From Oscillospiraceae bacterium (GTDB lineage Bacteria > Bacillota > Clostridia > Oscillospirales > CAG-272): 64,000 bases of DNA. This document shows positions 5,430 through 44,483 of the stretch, piece by piece (positions within the stretch are counted from its first letter, which is position 1; the number at the start of each line of letters is the position of its first letter). The translations under genes were made by a program, and so were the position numbers. Under the pieces are notes generated by a model. It did no database searches. It saw nothing but the letters and a program-made list of their open reading frames with translations, and had not been told where the DNA came from. The stretch is from assembly GCA_015064885.1 (NCBI GenBank), contig SVRJ01000004.1:18623-82622 (forward strand), given 5' to 3'.

Positions 5430-7211
5430 ATGTTGAATATAAAAAATGAAAATGCGGTAAAGAAGATCTTCGTTTCTTCACTGTCTTTGTTTCTGATATT
5501 ATGCTTTTTTGCCGTCCTCATTCCCCAGCCGGCGTCGGCGGCACCCGTCATCGGCACTTACCTCGTCACCGATTCCGTACGTCTTCGCAAGGGACCGAGC
5601 ACTTCGTACGAGGTCGTAAACAACACCCTTATCCCAAAGAACTCCACAATAATCATTGAGGAATTCACAGAGGATTATTCGTGGGGCAGGACCTCATACA
5701 GCGGCAACACCGGGTGGGTCGCTATGGCATATCTCGAAAAGATCGAGGACGACACCACGATAACGGGTAAGACCGGAGAAGAGATCTGTGCAGAGATAAC
5801 CGCTGCGTATAAAGCTATGCGCAAAAAATTCGGACGCTCCTATTCGGGCTGGTGCGGACAGTACGTAAAGGATATGCTCAATCAGCTTAAAATAGGACTC
5901 TACGGAAGCGGAAGTCTTAACGGAAACAAGTGGATGTCCACACTCGTAGATAACGCGGTAACTCCGTACGGCTACAAGCAGGTAAAATACTACGGTGAAA
6001 ATTGCCTTCAGGATATCATTGATGCAAACGGCGGCATTGCATACAATATAGTTCTCTCGTTCAATATTCAGAGCGGACAGTTTGCAAAGTACGGTCACGT
6101 TCTCTTCATCAACGCCATTATCGACGGGAAGGTCTACTATTCGGAAAGCTATTCCACGTCACGCGGAGCAGAGGGTGCTCCGCAGGTAAACACTCTTGCT
6201 AACTTCCTTCGCTACTACAGAAGCTTTCAGATAATCGGCGCAATACATATGACTCAGGGAACCTATCTCAAGCCCGTAAGCGGAACAAAGATAGAAAACA
6301 TCGCGTCATCAAAGTCGATCACGGTAGAAAACAAAAATGATTCGAGCGATTTTGAAGGAGCGGCGATCCAGGTATACTCATCTCTCGGATTCTCGTCGAG
6401 ACAGGCCTTCCACTTTGAAAAAGCTACAGATACGGGAATATTCAAGATACGTCCCGAGTCGTCATCCTCACGCGTTCTTTCCGCCAAAGATCCAAGCTCC
6501 CCCGAAGAAAGTGCGGTGGTTCTATCCACCTATACGGGGCATGCGTCACAAGAGTGGTACTTCCAGCTTATCGACGCTTCAAATTACAGATACGTAATAC
6601 GCCTGAGATCGAATCCCGACTACGTGCTTACCGCCGATTCCACGGGAGATTACGCCTCGGTAAGTATTCAGAAATATGCCTCGGGTAACACCCGTCAGCT
6701 CTGGAAGGTGCCGACAAGCCAGGACCTCTCTTGCCTTGTCGAAAAGATAAGCATCTCACCCTCCAAAACAGACCTTGCCACAGACAGCTCACTCAAATTA
6801 ACCGCAACTGTCTTCCCCTCTTTTGCAAAGAACGCACAGGTAGTCTGGTCATCAGACGATCCCTCGGTAGTTACGGTTCAGGGAGGAACGGTATTCGGAA
6901 AATCCAAGGGAACTGCGATCGTACGGGCAAAGCTCGCGGACGGAAGCCTGTTTGCCGTATGCGTTATCACGGTAAAGGATGAGCTTACACTCCTCGGAGA
7001 CGCAAACAAGGACCACGCGGTAACTCTTCTCGATTACAACACGGTCGCAAGATATATAAACGGTGACACCTCGGCGTCTATGATAAATATAGAAAACGCA
7101 GATATAAACCGCGACGGAAAAATAGACTCCGCCGACCTTGAGGAATATGAAAAATACTTCAGCGGAAACACTGATTGTATTCTCTACAAGGAACACGGCA
7201 GAGTGAACTGA
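5430..7211 (+). CDS. Secreted SH3b / CHAP-like amidase / ricin-type lectin / Big2 / dockerin-like protein
   Basis: Signal peptide; SH3b (VTDSVRLRKGPSTSYEVV..GWVAMAYL); SGWCGQYV plus YGHVLFI; QxW-like ricin repeats; Big2 (ISPSKTDLATDSSLKLTATVFP); dockerin-like GDANKDHAVTLLD / DINRDGKIDSADL. Confidence 0.8.
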   Translation: MLNIKNENAVKKIFVSSLSLFLILCFFAVLIPQPASAAPVIGTYLVTDSVRLRKGPSTSYEVVNNTLIPKNSTIIIEEFTEDYSWGRTSYSGNTGWVAMAYLEKIEDDTTITGKTGEEICAEITAAYKAMRKKFGRSYSGWCGQYVKDMLNQLKIGLYGSGSLNGNKWMSTLVDNAVTPYGYKQVKYYGENCLQDIIDANGGIAYNIVLSFNIQSGQFAKYGHVLFINAIIDGKVYYSESYSTSRGAEGAPQVNTLANFLRYYRSFQIIGAIHMTQGTYLKPVSGTKIENIASSKSITVENKNDSSDFEGAAIQVYSSLGFSSRQAFHFEKATDTGIFKIRPESSSSRVLSAKDPSSPEESAVVLSTYTGHASQEWYFQLIDASNYRYVIRLRSNPDYVLTADSTGDYASVSIQKYASGNTRQLWKVPTSQDLSCLVEKISISPSKTDLATDSSLKLTATVFPSFAKNAQVVWSSDDPSVVTVQGGTVFGKSKGTAIVRAKLADGSLFAVCVITVKDELTLLGDANKDHAVTLLDYNTVARYINGDTSASMINIENADINRDGKIDSADLEEYEKYFSGNTDCILYKEHGRVN

Positions 7212-7221
7212 TAAATAAAAT

Positions 7222-7271
7222 AAAGGCTACCCCGAATACGAGCTTATGAATGTATCCGGGTAGCCTTTTTT
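7222..7271 (+). terminator. Rho-independent terminator
   Basis: AAAGGCTACCCCGAATAC...GTATCCGGGTAGCCTTTTTT. Confidence 0.85.
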
Positions 7272-7315
7272 GTCGCATTGAAACAAATATCTTGTCTATC
7301 TCATTCAAAGCTTAC

Positions 7316-8143
7316 TTATTCAAAATAAGAATCTATTCCGTTCGCTATTCCGTCGACTATTTTTCTTCTGTATTCATCGGTTGCCATAAGCTCGTCTTCT
7401 TCGATATTCGACATATAGCCCATTTCCACTATCGTAACGGGTATACGGCACCAATTTATTCCCGTCATTGTGTCTGTTCCGTATATTCCGCGGTTGAGCG
7501 CCCCGGTAGATGCGCAAAGGCTATCGACTATTATTTTTGAGAGGCGGCGGCTTTCACCGATGATACCCGCAGAGAGAAATTCATTCGCAAACGTAGGCGC
7601 ACACGTAAGTGCTCCTTTTACTTTCGGATCGGAAGAACCGTTTGCGTGTATTCGTACGAATATATCCGCTCCGCTTTCGTTTGCTGTTATTGCCCTTTTC
7701 GCATTGCTTATCGGACAATCGTGAGTTTCTCTTATCATTACGACCTTGTATCCACGTAATAGAAGCTCCTCCTTAAGCATAAGCGACACCTCAAGAGTAA
7801 GGACGTATTCAGGAATACCCGTAGAAACGCCGCGTGTTCCGCTTGAGAGCTTTGCTTTAAGCACGCTTGAACCGGGGCCGTTCGGCTCTTTTTCCGGAAT
7901 TCCCTTTTGCTGGTGTCCCGCATCTATACACACGCAGTATCCGTTTTCATATCCGGTGGTTTCTTCAGCTGAACTGTTTACGGTGTCGGAGGTGTGTAAA
8001 GTCTCGGGCTTCGCAGTATCGCTCTGCTCATCCGAGCTTACCGGATCTGTGTTTTCGGTCTTCTCTTTCCCGGGGCTGCAGCTTTGAAGCAATATGAGGG
8101 TCAGAATTATGAACAAAATCAATATACGCAGAGATATTTTCAT
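7316..8143 (-). CDS. N-acetylmuramoyl-L-alanine amidase (Amidase_3), lipoprotein
   Basis: Lipobox LLQSCS; CIDAGHQ, IRETHD, HANGS, VEMGYMSN motifs. Confidence 0.88.
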   Translation of the reverse strand: MKISLRILILFIILTLILLQSCSPGKEKTENTDPVSSDEQSDTAKPETLHTSDTVNSSAEETTGYENGYCVCIDAGHQQKGIPEKEPNGPGSSVLKAKLSSGTRGVSTGIPEYVLTLEVSLMLKEELLLRGYKVVMIRETHDCPISNAKRAITANESGADIFVRIHANGSSDPKVKGALTCAPTFANEFLSAGIIGESRRLSKIIVDSLCASTGALNRGIYGTDTMTGINWCRIPVTIVEMGYMSNIEEDELMATDEYRRKIVDGIANGIDSYFE

Positions 8144-36893: not shown

Positions 36894-38483
36894 ATGACAC
36901 TTTTAAGCTCTCCTTTTGATTCTGTAGCTCACTCTCTTGCGCTGACTTTAAAGTACGCAAAGGAAACGGGAGAAAAGGAAATATGTATTCCCAAAGGGAC
37001 CTATCACGTCTATGCGAGCGAGGCTTCCGCTCCGCCGATCTGCGTCGCAAATCACGGCCATAACGGATTTAAAGCCACCGCTCTTTCAATAGAGGCTATG
37101 AACGATATCACGGTAGACGGATCGGGAAGTGAGTTTATTCTCCACGGGCCTATGGACTTTGCGATAATAAGCAGATCAAGGAACGTAACCGTCAAAAATC
37201 TTACTGTCAGATGTGCCGACACATGCAATTTTCAAGGAAAGGTCACAGAAAGCACAGAGGAATATGTTAAAATAAAACTCGATGAACATCCCGAGCTTCA
37301 TTTCTTCGGTGATACGCTATTTCAGAAATTCAGCGACAACCAATACGAGGCTATGGGTAGAACTCTCGATTACGTCACAGAGACTATGGAGCTTCGCAGA
37401 GGCACGGGAGACGAAAATTTCGGAACGTCGATAAACAAGCTGAAAAAGGCACTTGACGGTGACGTTCTAACGATATACGGAGCAAAAAACATTCCTCCGG
37501 TAGGTGATACCATAGTCTTTACTATGTCGAGAAGGTGCAATCAGGCTTTTCTCGTATCACATTCTGAAAACGTGGTCCTCGAGAATATAATAGTGAATAC
37601 CTGCTGGGGAATGGCTTTTATCGCACAAAAATCCAAGGACGTGACGGTACGCTCATGTACGGTAACTCCGGACGCGGGCAGATACTGGTCTGCAGGTCAG
37701 GACGCGACTCATTTCGTAAACTGCCGCGGAAGAGTCATAATAGAGGACAGTCTGTTTGAAAATCAACTTGACGACGCCGTCAATCTTCACGGAATATATA
37801 CCGTCATTGCCAAGAAGGCTTCCGATTCAATACTCGTTCGCTACGGACATTTTCAGGCAAGGGGTATAGACATATATTCGGTCGGTGACAAAATTCAGAT
37901 ACTCGACAGAGAAAGTCAGCAGCCGAAGGCTTTTGCAAGAGTAAAATCTGTCGACGTTCTAAGCGCGGAATACACATCTCTGGAGTTATCTGATATCGAT
38001 GGAGAGATATGCGAAAATATGATAGTCGAAAATCTTTCGGACAAGGCTGACGCGATCATCAGAAACAACGTCATCAGAAACAACCGCGCACGCGGTATGC
38101 TGATTGCTGCCAAGGGACACATAGAGATCGTCGGTAATTATTTTCACAGCGGCGGTGCGGCAATACAGTTTGAGTCAGACCCAATGAAATGGCTTGAATG
38201 CGGATCTGTAAACGACGTAACGATAAAGAATAATTTCTTCGACGACTGCCGTCACGGTAAATGGAGCCGTGCCGTAATCGACATAAACAAGCGAAGAAAG
38301 ACGGTTGACGGCTTCTACTACCACGGAAGCATAAGAATAACAAACAACCGATTCACACAGACAAGCGTTCCCTGCGTCTGTGCAGACAACGTCAGGGATC
38401 TCGTATTTTCGGATAACGAATACGTATGCGAAACTCCTGTAGTTGCGGCACACGCCTATGTAAACCGAGAAATGTTTGAATAA
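36894..38483 (+). CDS. Right-handed beta-helix, GH110-like (alpha-1,3-galactosidase family)
   Basis: Parallel beta-helix repeats; CTVTPDAGRYWSAGQDATHFVNCRG; ENQLDDAVNLHGIY; no signal peptide. Confidence 0.75.
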   Translation: MTLLSSPFDSVAHSLALTLKYAKETGEKEICIPKGTYHVYASEASAPPICVANHGHNGFKATALSIEAMNDITVDGSGSEFILHGPMDFAIISRSRNVTVKNLTVRCADTCNFQGKVTESTEEYVKIKLDEHPELHFFGDTLFQKFSDNQYEAMGRTLDYVTETMELRRGTGDENFGTSINKLKKALDGDVLTIYGAKNIPPVGDTIVFTMSRRCNQAFLVSHSENVVLENIIVNTCWGMAFIAQKSKDVTVRSCTVTPDAGRYWSAGQDATHFVNCRGRVIIEDSLFENQLDDAVNLHGIYTVIAKKASDSILVRYGHFQARGIDIYSVGDKIQILDRESQQPKAFARVKSVDVLSAEYTSLELSDIDGEICENMIVENLSDKADAIIRNNVIRNNRARGMLIAAKGHIEIVGNYFHSGGAAIQFESDPMKWLECGSVNDVTIKNNFFDDCRHGKWSRAVIDINKRRKTVDGFYYHGSIRITNNRFTQTSVPCVCADNVRDLVFSDNEYVCETPVVAAHAYVNREMFE

Positions 38484-38508
38484 TACAGACCGCAAAGGAG
38501 ATAAAACT

Positions 38509-40803
38509 ATGGAAAACAGGCTCAGATATTCATTACCCGCAACCTGTTTTGAGGAAGCACTTCCCCTCGGTAACGGTTCGGTAGGAGCCATGGTATACGG
38601 AAAACCGGGCGTTGAAAAAATATCACTTAATCATGATACGCTCTGGTCGGGAAAGCCGAAAAGAGTAAAAAAGGAAGGCGCCTATGATGCCTATATAAAA
38701 AGTCAGGCACTTGTCCTTTCCGGCAAGGTCGAGGAAGCAGAGGCTCTTATAGAAAAAGAGTTTACGTCCGATTTTTCACAAACGTATATGCCTCTCGGAA
38801 ATCTTTATATCAGATCCGAGTGCGAGGGAGAAATAAGCGATTATTACCGTGAGCTTGACTTTGAAACGGCAGCGGTAAACGTAAGATACAAGCAAAACGG
38901 AATAGCCTTCAACAGAAAATACATTGTTTCGCATCCCGACAACTGCATTGCGGTATTCCTATCCTCCGACGCACCGTCAAGCTATACCTTCTCGGCCGAC
39001 TCTCAGCTAAAAAGTATCACTACGGCATATCAAAACATGCTGTTTTTGACAGGTGAGGCTCCTTCCAATATGCCGGCAACAGATTATACGAAAACGTCAC
39101 CGATCGAATACGACGGAAGCGGTATAAAATTTGCGGCTATAGGCGCTGTAAAAACAAACGGAAGCATTTCGTTTGAGAGATCCGAGCTTACGGTAAAGGA
39201 TGCTACCGAAGTTTATTTTACGATGTGTATTGAGACAAGCTTTGTCTCATTCGATTCGCTTCCCGTAAAGGATCATTATTATCCTTGCAGATCCCGCGTT
39301 GAAAAGCTTTCGGAGGTTCGGTTCTCCGAGATACTCAAGAGGCATACGGAGGATCACTCTTCTCTTTATTCACGTATAAAAACCGATTTCGGATTCCCTA
39401 TATCCGATAAAAATACAGATGAACGCTTAAAAGCTGAGGATAAATCGCAGGATCTCGGACTTATTGAGCTGATCTATAATTTCGGCCGTTATCTCATCAT
39501 AGCATCATCGAGAGAAGGTAGTGAGGCAACCAATCTCCAAGGTATTTGGAATGAGATGTTTATTCCTCCGTGGCAAGCAAATTACACGGTAAACATCAAT
39601 ACCCAAATGAATTACTGGCCTGTGCTTATGTGCAATCTCGCAGGACTTGATATGCCGCTTGTAGATCTGATAAAAAAGATAAGCGTCACCGGAATGGATA
39701 CGGCAAAGGAGTTTTACCGTGCAAACGGCTATTGTGCACATCATAACGTTGACATATGGGGACATTCATCACCGGTAGGGCTTCAAAGACCGAGAAGCAC
39801 ACAGTGGGCATTCTGGAACATGTCAGCGGGTTGGCTTTGCAGACATCTCTTTGAGCATTATGAATATACACTCGACAAGGATTTCCTCCGTGATACAGCT
39901 TATCCGCTCATGAAGGGTGCGGCAGAATTCTATCTTTCGGTAATGATAAAGGACGGTGAAAACTATATTGTATCTCCTTCCACATCACCCGAAAACTCAT
40001 ACAAAAATGCAGAAGGAAAACGCCTTGTGCTCGCAAAGCACACTGCAATGACACAGGCTATACTCACCGATCTTTTCACATGTATTTCAAAGTCTGCGGA
40101 TATTCTCGGCATCGATGACGACTTTGTAAAAAAGGTTCGTCAATTGCTTCCTGCCTTCAACACGTATAAAATAGGCTCGCAAGGACAGCTTCTCGAATAC
40201 GACGAAGAATATGAGGAGTTCGATATAAAGCACCGTCACACATCACATCTGTACGGTCTTTATCCGGGTGATGAGATCACTGTTGAAGGAACGCCGGAGC
40301 TTGCCGACGCATGCAGAGTTACTCTTGACCGCAGAGGCGATTTCAGCACGGGATGGGCTATGGGCTGGCGCGTATGCTTTTGGGCAAAGCTGAAGGATGG
40401 AAACAGAGCTCTCAATATCCTAAATAATCAGCTGAGATTCACAGATCCAAAAAACAGAAGCACTTGGAAAGGCGGCGGAAGCTTCCTCAATCTCTTCTGT
40501 GCGCATCCTCCATTCCAGATAGACGGAAATTTCGGTGTTTGCGCGGGAATAACGCTCATGCTTCTTCAATGTGAGGACAGCAAGATACGGATCCTGCCTG
40601 CTCTTCCGGACAAATTCACCGACGGAAGCATAAGTGGGCTTAAGGCAAAGGGTAATATCACTGTGGATATTGAGTGGAAGAATAAAAAGGCTTCACGTGT
40701 TACTCTTGAAAGTCCATACACGCAGAAGGTTACGCTCGACGTACAGGGCAAAGAAATAAAAGCTCTGCTCTTTGCTAACGAAAAGCTTGTGTTGGAGTTT
40801 TAA
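38509..40803 (+). CDS. GH95 alpha-L-fucosidase-like glycoside hydrolase
   Basis: EALPLGNGSVGAMVYG; LNHDTLWSGKP; NLQGIWNEMFIPPWQANYTVNINTQMNYWP; SPSTSPENSY; HRHTSHLYGLYPG. Confidence 0.95.
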   Translation: MENRLRYSLPATCFEEALPLGNGSVGAMVYGKPGVEKISLNHDTLWSGKPKRVKKEGAYDAYIKSQALVLSGKVEEAEALIEKEFTSDFSQTYMPLGNLYIRSECEGEISDYYRELDFETAAVNVRYKQNGIAFNRKYIVSHPDNCIAVFLSSDAPSSYTFSADSQLKSITTAYQNMLFLTGEAPSNMPATDYTKTSPIEYDGSGIKFAAIGAVKTNGSISFERSELTVKDATEVYFTMCIETSFVSFDSLPVKDHYYPCRSRVEKLSEVRFSEILKRHTEDHSSLYSRIKTDFGFPISDKNTDERLKAEDKSQDLGLIELIYNFGRYLIIASSREGSEATNLQGIWNEMFIPPWQANYTVNINTQMNYWPVLMCNLAGLDMPLVDLIKKISVTGMDTAKEFYRANGYCAHHNVDIWGHSSPVGLQRPRSTQWAFWNMSAGWLCRHLFEHYEYTLDKDFLRDTAYPLMKGAAEFYLSVMIKDGENYIVSPSTSPENSYKNAEGKRLVLAKHTAMTQAILTDLFTCISKSADILGIDDDFVKKVRQLLPAFNTYKIGSQGQLLEYDEEYEEFDIKHRHTSHLYGLYPGDEITVEGTPELADACRVTLDRRGDFSTGWAMGWRVCFWAKLKDGNRALNILNNQLRFTDPKNRSTWKGGGSFLNLFCAHPPFQIDGNFGVCAGITLMLLQCEDSKIRILPALPDKFTDGSISGLKAKGNITVDIEWKNKKASRVTLESPYTQKVTLDVQGKEIKALLFANEKLVLEF

Positions 40804-40914: not shown

Positions 40915-41988
40915 ATGGCTCACAACTTTCAAAAACAAATAGATTTTCTTCTCGAAAACGCCAATCCCTCCATCCGTCTCCGTGTAAAGAAAGAGATTCT
41001 CGGTAACATTGCAGCAGAGGAAGAAACGGATCTTATTGCTCAGATCAAAGAAGAACAGATATACAAGCTCATCGCAAGTTGTCAAAAGGAAAACGGCTGG
41101 CTTGGCAACGGCTTTCACGGACCGAACAAAGATGCCGGACCTTACGAGAACCAAGAGGTCGGCACAAAGTGGCTTGCAGAAAAGGCAGTTGGTAAGAACG
41201 ATCCCGTGCTGAAGCGTGCTATGGATGCCTTTGTGACAACCGAACTGACAGACCTTTGCTATCGTACCAAGGGCAAATATTATGACGAGTTCCGCTATGC
41301 TGCCAACGGTCAGAATCTGATTCGCTCGGCTTGTATCGCACGTGCCGGATATGAAGGTATTATTGATATCAGACCGCAGATACAGTTGGCACTTGACTCT
41401 TTTAAGCGTGTGCTTGAAGTGGATTCTATCTTGGATATCACACGCATTAAAAAGATCAGCGGCAAGGAAAAGCGTGTTTTCAACGATTACGAAAAGTGGC
41501 CTTGCTATTATCATCTTGATATTTTGGCACATACGACCTCGTGGAGAACCGAGGATAATATTAAGATTCTCGCAGAAGCCGTGAAAAAGCTGATGCGCTC
41601 TGACCGCCCCGAATGTCAAGTCGGCGGTGACAGTTGGGTAGGATACGTTCTTGGAACGGTAGGTTGCCTTAAGGAAGGATACACTCTCGGTTATGACAAG
41701 GACGGCGTTCATTATACATATCTTGACCGTGTAGAATGGCTCTGCCGTTGCGGTCTTGCAACCTATATCCCCGAACTACAAGCGGAAGTAGATCTTCTCG
41801 CCAATGCCATTGACGAAAACGGTATTTGTCGAGCCAACGTTGATGAAAATCAACTAAAAGGCATCAGCACCTACGGCGGTCAACAGCTTGAGGTCGATTG
41901 GAAAAACGATGCAAGAAAACTGTGCGATATTACGTTCCGAGTTCTCTTGATAATGCACTACACCAACGGAGGTAAATATGAGCTTTGA
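40915..41988 (+). CDS. Uncharacterised helical protein, tandem paralogue 1
   Basis: NFQKQIDFLLENANPSIRLRVKKEIL; YYHLDILAHTTSWRTEDNIKILAEAV; C-terminal CDITFRVLL; SD GGAG. Confidence 0.85.
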   Translation: MAHNFQKQIDFLLENANPSIRLRVKKEILGNIAAEEETDLIAQIKEEQIYKLIASCQKENGWLGNGFHGPNKDAGPYENQEVGTKWLAEKAVGKNDPVLKRAMDAFVTTELTDLCYRTKGKYYDEFRYAANGQNLIRSACIARAGYEGIIDIRPQIQLALDSFKRVLEVDSILDITRIKKISGKEKRVFNDYEKWPCYYHLDILAHTTSWRTEDNIKILAEAVKKLMRSDRPECQVGGDSWVGYVLGTVGCLKEGYTLGYDKDGVHYTYLDRVEWLCRCGLATYIPELQAEVDLLANAIDENGICRANVDENQLKGISTYGGQQLEVDWKNDARKLCDITFRVLLIMHYTNGGKYEL

Positions 41989-43093
41989 CTATCAAAAATC
42001 AATAGATTTTCTTCTTGAAAACGGCAGAGATGTGATTCAGTACCGTTTGCATAAAGACATACTCCATGATCTCACCGAAGCTGAGGAAGAACTGCTTCTT
42101 GAAAAGGTGATGCAGACACCCGAATATCAGTTGCTTTTAACTCACGTTAAGCCAAACGGATATATCGGCATCGGTATGCACTCTTGGGAGAAATTCAAAG
42201 CATCACATCTTGATGACGGAGAAAATGCCGCAAGACTCTTACATAATTACGGTATCCCCAAGGATATGCCTATCGTGCAAAATTTCGTGAAAGCCATGCG
42301 TGACGATGCGGTACTCAAGCAAGAGTTTTCGTATTACAATCCCGAAAAGGTGCGATTTGAAACACGTAGTATCGGCATCAACAGCGGCTCGTCTCTTGAC
42401 GTCACACTGTATGCTTGTCAAGCGTTGCTCGGTTATGGTGACGATCCCGAAATGCGACATTTTGTTGATGCTTCTTATAAGGCATTCGTCAGCTTGCTTG
42501 ATTACGAGTCGGCAGATGAGATCACGACCTTCAATCCGAATCTCAAGAGAAAATATAACTACCCCACCATCACGCCCGACACCTATTTCCCGTGTCAATA
42601 CCATCTTGAAACCTTGGCTGAAACGCAGAGTTGGCGCACAGAGGAAAGTATTGCCCGTCTTGCCGAAGCAATCGACCACCACGACAGAATCACAAAGGAT
42701 TTCGGCGGTTTTGCGGTAAAGATCAACGGTAAGCAGGTAGGACCCGGCTGGGCGTATATGAATCCCTTTTTTGCGCTGTCATTTCCGCAGAAAGCTCCCA
42801 ATCACAGAAAGACATTGACCGCGCTTGCAAAGGTCACAGGAGATCGAACACAAGTGGTCAGAGAATCGGTGGAAACCCTGCTTGAAATGCTGTCCGAGGA
42901 TGGCGTACTTCGTACCACGTTCACATCGTCTTATGAAAAAAGTCGTTTCAAAGACAATTTCCGCAGCGGACATCCTTATGCAGAGATCGGGCTTGAACCC
43001 GACCATAGAAAAGATACGGCGATATGGTGTGAGCTTACATTTTGGGCGGTAGAATTTTTGCATATAATTGAACGCATGAAAAAAGGAGAATGA
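41978..43093 (+). CDS. Uncharacterised helical protein, tandem paralogue 2
   Basis: DYQKSIDFLLENGRDVIQYRLHKDIL; QYHLETLAETQSWRTEESIARLAEAI; C-terminal CELTFWAVE; SD GGAGG; overlaps paralogue 1 by 11 bp. Confidence 0.85.
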   Translation: MSFDYQKSIDFLLENGRDVIQYRLHKDILHDLTEAEEELLLEKVMQTPEYQLLLTHVKPNGYIGIGMHSWEKFKASHLDDGENAARLLHNYGIPKDMPIVQNFVKAMRDDAVLKQEFSYYNPEKVRFETRSIGINSGSSLDVTLYACQALLGYGDDPEMRHFVDASYKAFVSLLDYESADEITTFNPNLKRKYNYPTITPDTYFPCQYHLETLAETQSWRTEESIARLAEAIDHHDRITKDFGGFAVKINGKQVGPGWAYMNPFFALSFPQKAPNHRKTLTALAKVTGDRTQVVRESVETLLEMLSEDGVLRTTFTSSYEKSRFKDNFRSGHPYAEIGLEPDHRKDTAIWCELTFWAVEFLHIIERMKKGE

Positions 43094-43096
43094 GTC

Positions 43097-44143
43097 ATGG
43101 CATATAACTTTCAAAAGCAAATAGACTTTCTCCTTGAACATGCTTGCCCAAGTATTAAATATTTGGTATATCGAGATATGCTTGATACTCCCGTGGACGA
43201 GCCTTTTATGATGGCGCTTCAGAATGAGATTTTGGCACAAACAAATACCCAAAAGCACTTGTCCGCACAGCACCCCGACGGATGGTTCGGGCACGAGCTT
43301 CACGGTATTGACGGTATGGATTGCCACATTGGTGGACTTTTGAACTTGGGCGTTGAAGCAAGCTGTCCTGCGATTCAAAAGGCGGTCACTGCGTTGTTGA
43401 CACCCGAAATCGCATCGACACACAAGAATTGGTTTCGCGGTGGTGCGGCATTGGATGCTGAGGGGCGCGGTGGCGACCGTGCCATCGTTGCCAACATCCT
43501 CGCTATGACAAAGGCTCCCGAAGATATTCCCGTTTATGCGGAAGAATTGACCTTGGCGTTTGAGCATTTGGCGGCGGTCTTGGAGTATAACTCGGTTGAC
43601 GATTTTTCTATCAGGGGCAAGAACGAGCGATACTACAAACCAAAAGCCAGATTTCCCGGTGCAAACCATATCGGCATCCTTGCCGCTACGCAGGGATGGC
43701 GTACCGAGGAAAAGATGAATACTGCAAAAGCAGCCATCAATCACGCTTACGAGATCATGAAGGACGTTGACGAATATATCACGTTCAAAAAGCCGACCGA
43801 ATTTGGCGGTGGATTTGTCGGTCCGTTCAACTATAATTGGCAAGCTCTGAAGCCTATGAACGAGGAACAGATCGTCGGTATCATCAACAGCTCCTACAAC
43901 TTCCAATTCGCATTTTGGCTCGGCGCAATTACCGGTGTTCCCGATTGGGTAAAACAGCACAACGGTACATACGAAGCTCTTGCCGATATGCTTGATCGGA
44001 ATGTTATATTCAATCAGATTCCCGAAAGCACACTAAAAGCATTCAAACAGGTGTCGGGTAAAGAGCCTAACTACCGAAAGAAGCATGCCGCAGAATGTGA
44101 CGTTACATACGCGATACTTAATGCGGTTTTAGGAAAAGTATAA
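43097..44143 (+). CDS. Uncharacterised helical protein, tandem paralogue 3
   Basis: NFQKQIDFLLEHACPSIKYLVYRDML; NHIGILAATQGWRTEEKMNTAKAAI; C-terminal CDVTYAILN; SD AAAGGAG. Confidence 0.85.
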   Translation: MAYNFQKQIDFLLEHACPSIKYLVYRDMLDTPVDEPFMMALQNEILAQTNTQKHLSAQHPDGWFGHELHGIDGMDCHIGGLLNLGVEASCPAIQKAVTALLTPEIASTHKNWFRGGAALDAEGRGGDRAIVANILAMTKAPEDIPVYAEELTLAFEHLAAVLEYNSVDDFSIRGKNERYYKPKARFPGANHIGILAATQGWRTEEKMNTAKAAINHAYEIMKDVDEYITFKKPTEFGGGFVGPFNYNWQALKPMNEEQIVGIINSSYNFQFAFWLGAITGVPDWVKQHNGTYEALADMLDRNVIFNQIPESTLKAFKQVSGKEPNYRKKHAAECDVTYAILNAVLGKV

Positions 44144-44263
44144 AAAAAGAGCAGTAAAACCGCTCTAAACAACATACGACCAAAAACGATCGGGCGTTCA
44201 CCGTTTTTGTTATGAACGCTATTTTCAATACGAATATTTTATTACTGCGTGGTTAGTAAAAAA

Positions 44264-44300
44264 GGCAGTGACTGTACCGAAACCGGATACAGTCACCGCC
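44264..44300 (-). terminator. Terminator of tRNA-Pro
   Basis: Minus strand GGCGGTGACTGTA-TCCGGTTTCGG-TACAGTCACTGCC-TTTTTTA. Confidence 0.85.
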
Positions 44301-44303
44301 TAT

Positions 44304-44380
44304 TGGTCGGAGTGACAGGAATTGAACCTGCGGCCTCATGGTCCCGAACCATGCGCTCTACCAAGCTGAGCCACACCCCG
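44304..44380 (-). tRNA. tRNA-Pro (CGG)
   Basis: Minus strand CGGGGTGTGGCTCAGCTTGGTAGAGCGCATGGTTCGGGACCATGAGGCCGCAGGTTCAATTCCTGTCACTCCGACCA; anticodon loop TTCGGGA. Confidence 0.95.
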
Positions 44381-44483
44381 AAATATTCAGCCTTAATATT
44401 ATACCACAAACATAACGGTTTGTCAAGTCTTTTTTTGAAATATCCGAAATATAAATATACAAAAAGTTAACGGAGGTAATATC

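Follow-up and report, generated by a model that had tools for sequence, protein, structure and literature searches.

Three tandem paralogous genes of an Oscillospiraceae bacterium point to an undescribed, mobile family of probably toroid-like helical proteins

The closest described system to the proteins reported here is the squalene-hopene cyclase/prenyltransferase-beta superfamily. The likeness lies in an all-helical, toroid-like character, the latter from the structure matches of one protein, and in a sequence link through an intermediate group, A4. Unlike that superfamily, the present proteins are single domains of about 350 residues and have no direct sequence match to it. DxDD is absent from all three proteins and from 73 of 80 family members (present in 7), and a terpene cyclase reading was rejected on this ground. 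The canonical squalene-hopene cyclase QW motif, Q-x(2-5)-G-x-W, occurs in 0 of the 80. Two uncharacterised groups also share sequence with the family. A5, from Clostridia (L158, L182-L185), has the N-terminal IDFLLE...IRYRV block and the HG motif but lacks the W-R-T-E block, and is likewise unnamed in Pfam and NCBIfam. The A4-type proteins (L178-L181) share an N-terminal WLLE..NPSVRY..L block and the first repeats; however, the alignment covers only about 142 columns, and His68, invariant in the family, is not evident in A4. The A4-type proteins may resemble those commonly labelled squalene-cyclase-like or, wrongly, NifH.

The locus lies in a window of 64,000 nucleotides (contig SVRJ01000004.1, positions 18,623 to 82,622). 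Three consecutive genes, A, B and C (Table 1), are each preceded by a GGAG-type Shine-Dalgarno sequence; A and B overlap by 11 bp, and a gap of 3 bp separates B from C. The three proteins are homologous. Nearly full-length BLASTP alignments show 26.5% identity between A and B (E 4e-25), 24.9% between A and C (E 2e-24) and 23.4% between B and C (E 2e-19), and the pairwise local alignment scores are 26–40 standard deviations over 500 shuffled controls. The initial annotation had described three tightly packed, Shine-Dalgarno-preceded paralogous reading frames, as the coordinates, ribosome-binding sites, BLASTP and shuffle scores bear out, and the four shared sequence blocks that it listed were all found in A, B and C. 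The genes are probably co-transcribed as a cassette. The N-termini carry no hydrophobic stretch, so the proteins are predicted to be soluble and cytosolic. A search with A as query found the trio as the only copies in the source genome. Antisense reading frames across the trio, of 271 and 393 residues, are without support as genes.

Table 1. Features of the trio and its downstream flank, in window coordinates.
Feature	Coordinates	Strand	Basis
Subfamily A protein, 357 aa	40915..41988	+	ORF with Shine-Dalgarno; clade A; AlphaFold2 pLDDT 85.9, pTM 0.88
A motif GWLGNGFHG, residues 61-69, including invariant H68	41095..41121	+	conservation and motif check
A motif HLDILAHTTSWRTE, residues 200-213, including invariant W210	41512..41553	+	conservation and motif check
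A CDITF block, residues 337-341	41923..41937	+	conservation and motif check
Subfamily B protein, 371 aa	41978..43093	+	ORF with Shine-Dalgarno; clade B; cross-genus identity
Subfamily C protein, 348 aa	43097..44143	+	ORF with Shine-Dalgarno; clade C; AlphaFold2 pLDDT 95.0, pTM 0.91
tRNA-Pro(CGG), 3' end towards trio, ~160 bp past C stop	44304..44380	-	

Searches of Pfam and NCBIfam with A, B and C gave nothing near or above a curated cut-off, and no Pfam or NCBIfam family is common to most of 34 family members. Neither A nor the family profile matched a PDB sequence, and literature searches found no description of the family. Together with the PADLOC result given below, these null results agree with the first impression that the proteins belong to no named family. 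The best fit is that the trio belong to a family not described before, whose fold is of a known type. With a profile built from the 34 members (A2), relatives were detected in 33 of 298 genomes from this bacterial family; at class level the count was 15 of 392, and at phylum level 12 of 399. The samples overlap and the counts are not additive. A DNA scan located relatives in named MAGs, many of ruminants and rabbits, and in one Anaerolineales MAG.

A maximum-likelihood tree of 80 homologues resolves clades A (33 rows, support 100/99), B (22 rows, 100/100), C (14 rows, 100/99) and D (5 rows, 100/100). Clade D is nearest to C with high support, though long branches meet there. In this tree the separation of the four subfamilies is ancient, which confirms the earlier proposal of an old duplication rather than recent copying. 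Across the 80 homologues, His68, Pro196 and Trp210 (A numbering) are conserved at 100%, Gly61 and Leu204 at 99%, Thr207 at 96% and Glu326 at 91%. A conserved W-R-T-E pocket had been anticipated; the Trp is invariant, but the R-T-E that follows it varies among the homologues.

The AlphaFold2 models of A and C are confident and mostly helix, and they predict an all-helical family. The best 50 PDB structure matches of the A model are mostly alpha/alpha-toroids, including lyases, GH88/105, complement, alpha2-macroglobulin, squalene-hopene cyclase and prenyltransferase; these matches are weak, with a best E of 4e-3, none reaching 1e-3, and a TM of at most 0.43. Nothing matched in a BFVD structure search. 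With hhalign, whose E-values refer to one comparison each, the A2 profile matches A5 over 330 columns (E 6e-16) and A4 over about 142 columns (97% probability). The A4 profile in turn matches squalene-hopene cyclase (E 8e-7) and Rab GGTase beta (7e-4). From the structure matches of A and this two-step sequence link, the alpha/alpha-toroid is probably the best-fitting fold. It is considered probable rather than proven because the structure matches are weak and the sequence link takes two steps, with single-comparison E-values. The initial annotation had offered an alpha/alpha-toroid or a HEAT-like fold; the helical models agree with it, the toroid is now the probable form, and the HEAT-like fold is kept as a rival.

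Protein B is 94–97% identical to copies in four other genera; the LeuS proteins there are 44–50% identical to that of the window. When the whole window was compared with the fetched loci by blastn, DNA similarity ended at or near the toroid genes, and the sole further match was a short conserved gene. The family is under purifying selection, with a dN/dS (Nei-Gojobori) of 0.03–0.05 for B and 0.06–0.11 for A and C, B being under the tighter constraint. Horizontal transfer under purifying selection is the simplest reading of these comparisons. The family moves across genera of gut bacteria, singly or a few genes per transfer, and this horizontal movement is newly seen here. The GC content of the trio is 0.464 and that of the window 0.460, so composition shows no sign of import. 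We regard it as likely that the genes form an undescribed, mobile, toroid-like family.

Locus content was classified by tblastn to the subfamilies; some loci are cut by contig ends, and a few are orthologous between related species. At about 20 of some 62 A–D loci, at least two different subfamilies are present, and the remaining loci hold a single gene in unrelated surroundings. The gene order is ABC in the window, L038 and L121, BAC in L117 and L128, CBA in L123, AB in L036, AC or CA in L034, L035, L113, L115 and L122, and DA in L126, L135 and L137. B and C are adjacent in L174, a locus from another class. The clusters combine different subfamilies, the exceptions being two A genes on opposite strands (L125) and a piece of A beside A (L144). 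Co-occurrence of the paralogues, which had been named as support for a common system, is therefore found in other genomes. The opposite outcome, genes mostly single and in unrelated contexts, holds for about two-thirds of the loci, yet about one-third hold paralogue sets.

Remnants also occur: in L045 a fragment of A precedes C, in L113 a fragment of B adjoins A, and in G089 B is followed by the start of C. The pattern is consistent with gene sets being assembled and then decaying. A few family copies carry stop codons; a C copy in L049 (4707–5750) has two, and other genomes hold intact copies. The existence of such copies indicates that the function is dispensable.

The flanking genes vary between the inspected loci. 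Contiguous neighbours on the same strand include GNAT and NUDIX proteins, methyltransferases, a nucleotidyltransferase, an alpha/beta hydrolase and an AraC/GyrI-like regulator. A P-loop protein with weak AAA matches only lies beside the family in L037 (2831–3496), L038 (10819–11829) and L133 (7535–8287). A 167-residue protein, A7, has copies 64–96% identical in L110 (540–1040), L121 (1886–2386), L134 (10421–10921) and L037 (7780–8280), where it adjoins or sits inside the toroid cluster, and it occurs in L114 too. A7 has no match in Pfam, and a GyrI-like identity was dropped for this reason, the GyrI-like domain being found only in an AraC neighbour. A family of 308–323 residues, A3, neighbours the toroid genes in three loci (L034 9415–10338, L126 911–1879, L149 11147–12100) and has a QNxDGG repeat-like motif; its homology to the trio family is not established (profile comparison probability 9%), and more remote relatives occur on plasmids of Arthrobacter and Cytobacillus. 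In L034, a 724-residue protein (5790–7961) without a Pfam or NCBIfam match is encoded 39 bp upstream of A, and a relative of it sits upstream of A in L035.

The reading that we tentatively prefer is that the trio may be a co-transcribed cassette of cytosolic, all-helical, probably toroid proteins, each with a pocket that might accept a small molecule. The evidence bears most firmly on the family itself, its subfamilies, selection and mobility. The pocket reading is drawn from the fold type, the conserved His, Trp and Glu residues, the cytosolic character and the neighbours; no catalytic motif was recognised in the family. Each protein would be a pocket protein, either enzyme or binder, with His68, His200, Trp210 and Glu326 (A numbering) near the putative site, and each subfamily might handle its own ligand or its own step. 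A role in small-molecule processing or detoxification is possible but doubtful. A rather improbable extension is a multi-protein system in which three or four ancient toroid paralogues cooperate in handling a small molecule, their genes travelling between gut bacteria as a gene-sized cassette that in some cases settles beside tRNA genes.

A still-live rival to the pocket-protein reading is that A, B and C assemble into one hetero-oligomer, a scaffold or enzyme complex that would itself keep the genes linked. Different subfamilies are repeatedly found together, closely spaced or even overlapping, and a subfamily is almost never duplicated within one cluster, as such a complex would lead one to expect. 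The family nevertheless stands as a single member at about two-thirds of the loci, also outside the bacterial family, the gene order is permuted between sets, and selection holds B more tightly than A or C, so that a complex seems unlikely.

The proteins might instead be HEAT/armadillo-like helical-repeat scaffolds that bind a protein or peptide and have no small-molecule site. The structure list of C is headed, by E-value, by armadillo-repeat and importin-like proteins. Their TM values are only 0.14–0.24, however, against 0.39 for alpha2-macroglobulin, the highest in the same list; the A list consists mostly of toroids, and the sequence route ends at squalene-hopene cyclase. The scaffold is thus a minority possibility.

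The tRNA-Pro(CGG) gene downstream separates the trio from a diacylglycerol-kinase-like gene, and its region (44263–44426) includes a hairpin terminator as well as a promoter of perfect TTGACA-17-TATAAT form. A tRNA lies within 600 bp of 7 of 58 family blocks, all 7 on the tRNA 3' side; among 375 other genes the figure is 14, of which 6 are 3'-sided. The enrichment depends on the cut-off (p 0.06 at 300 bp, 0.014 at 600 bp and 0.06 at 1000 bp). The preference of family blocks for the tRNA 3' side is suggestive, since the test was chosen after inspecting the window, three cut-offs were tried and no convincing att repeats were found at the tRNAs.

This location, the horizontal transfer and decay, and the patchy spread over the family, class and phylum genomes would suit a conflict cassette, and an anti-phage defence or other conflict function was considered. 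PADLOC assigned A, B and C to 0 families, and searches of phages, plasmids and viral contigs returned no relatives, so defence was set aside. No nuclease or toxin partner was seen, and purifying selection on the family is strong; a conflict role is very unlikely.

A GLAA-B/beta-helix protein (a possible GH110 alpha-galactosidase) is encoded upstream, with GH95 directly after it (36894–40803), and the two are a possible blood-group-type glycan pair. That the trio serves host-glycan breakdown with these genes, as the 111 bp between GH95 and A, the lack of a forward terminator-like site in that interval and the GLAA-B protein upstream might suggest, is extremely improbable and largely refuted by the survey: GH95 is as frequent in carriers (16 of 33) as overall (140 of 298 genomes; family-level, counted from two lists), the upstream genes differ at other inspected loci, and the window is the only inspected locus with the trio directly behind GH95. 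The link to fucosylated glycans proposed in the initial annotation was rejected accordingly.

On the preferred reading of pocket proteins, the family may be retained for a useful yet dispensable chemistry, for instance one that modifies or neutralises some small molecule present in the guts of herbivores. If this is right, a family unnamed in Pfam and NCBIfam, under strong selection, moves between genera in the guts of ruminants and other herbivores. Its permuted sets of ancient paralogues would then pose a testable choice between one complex, sequential action and separate ligands.
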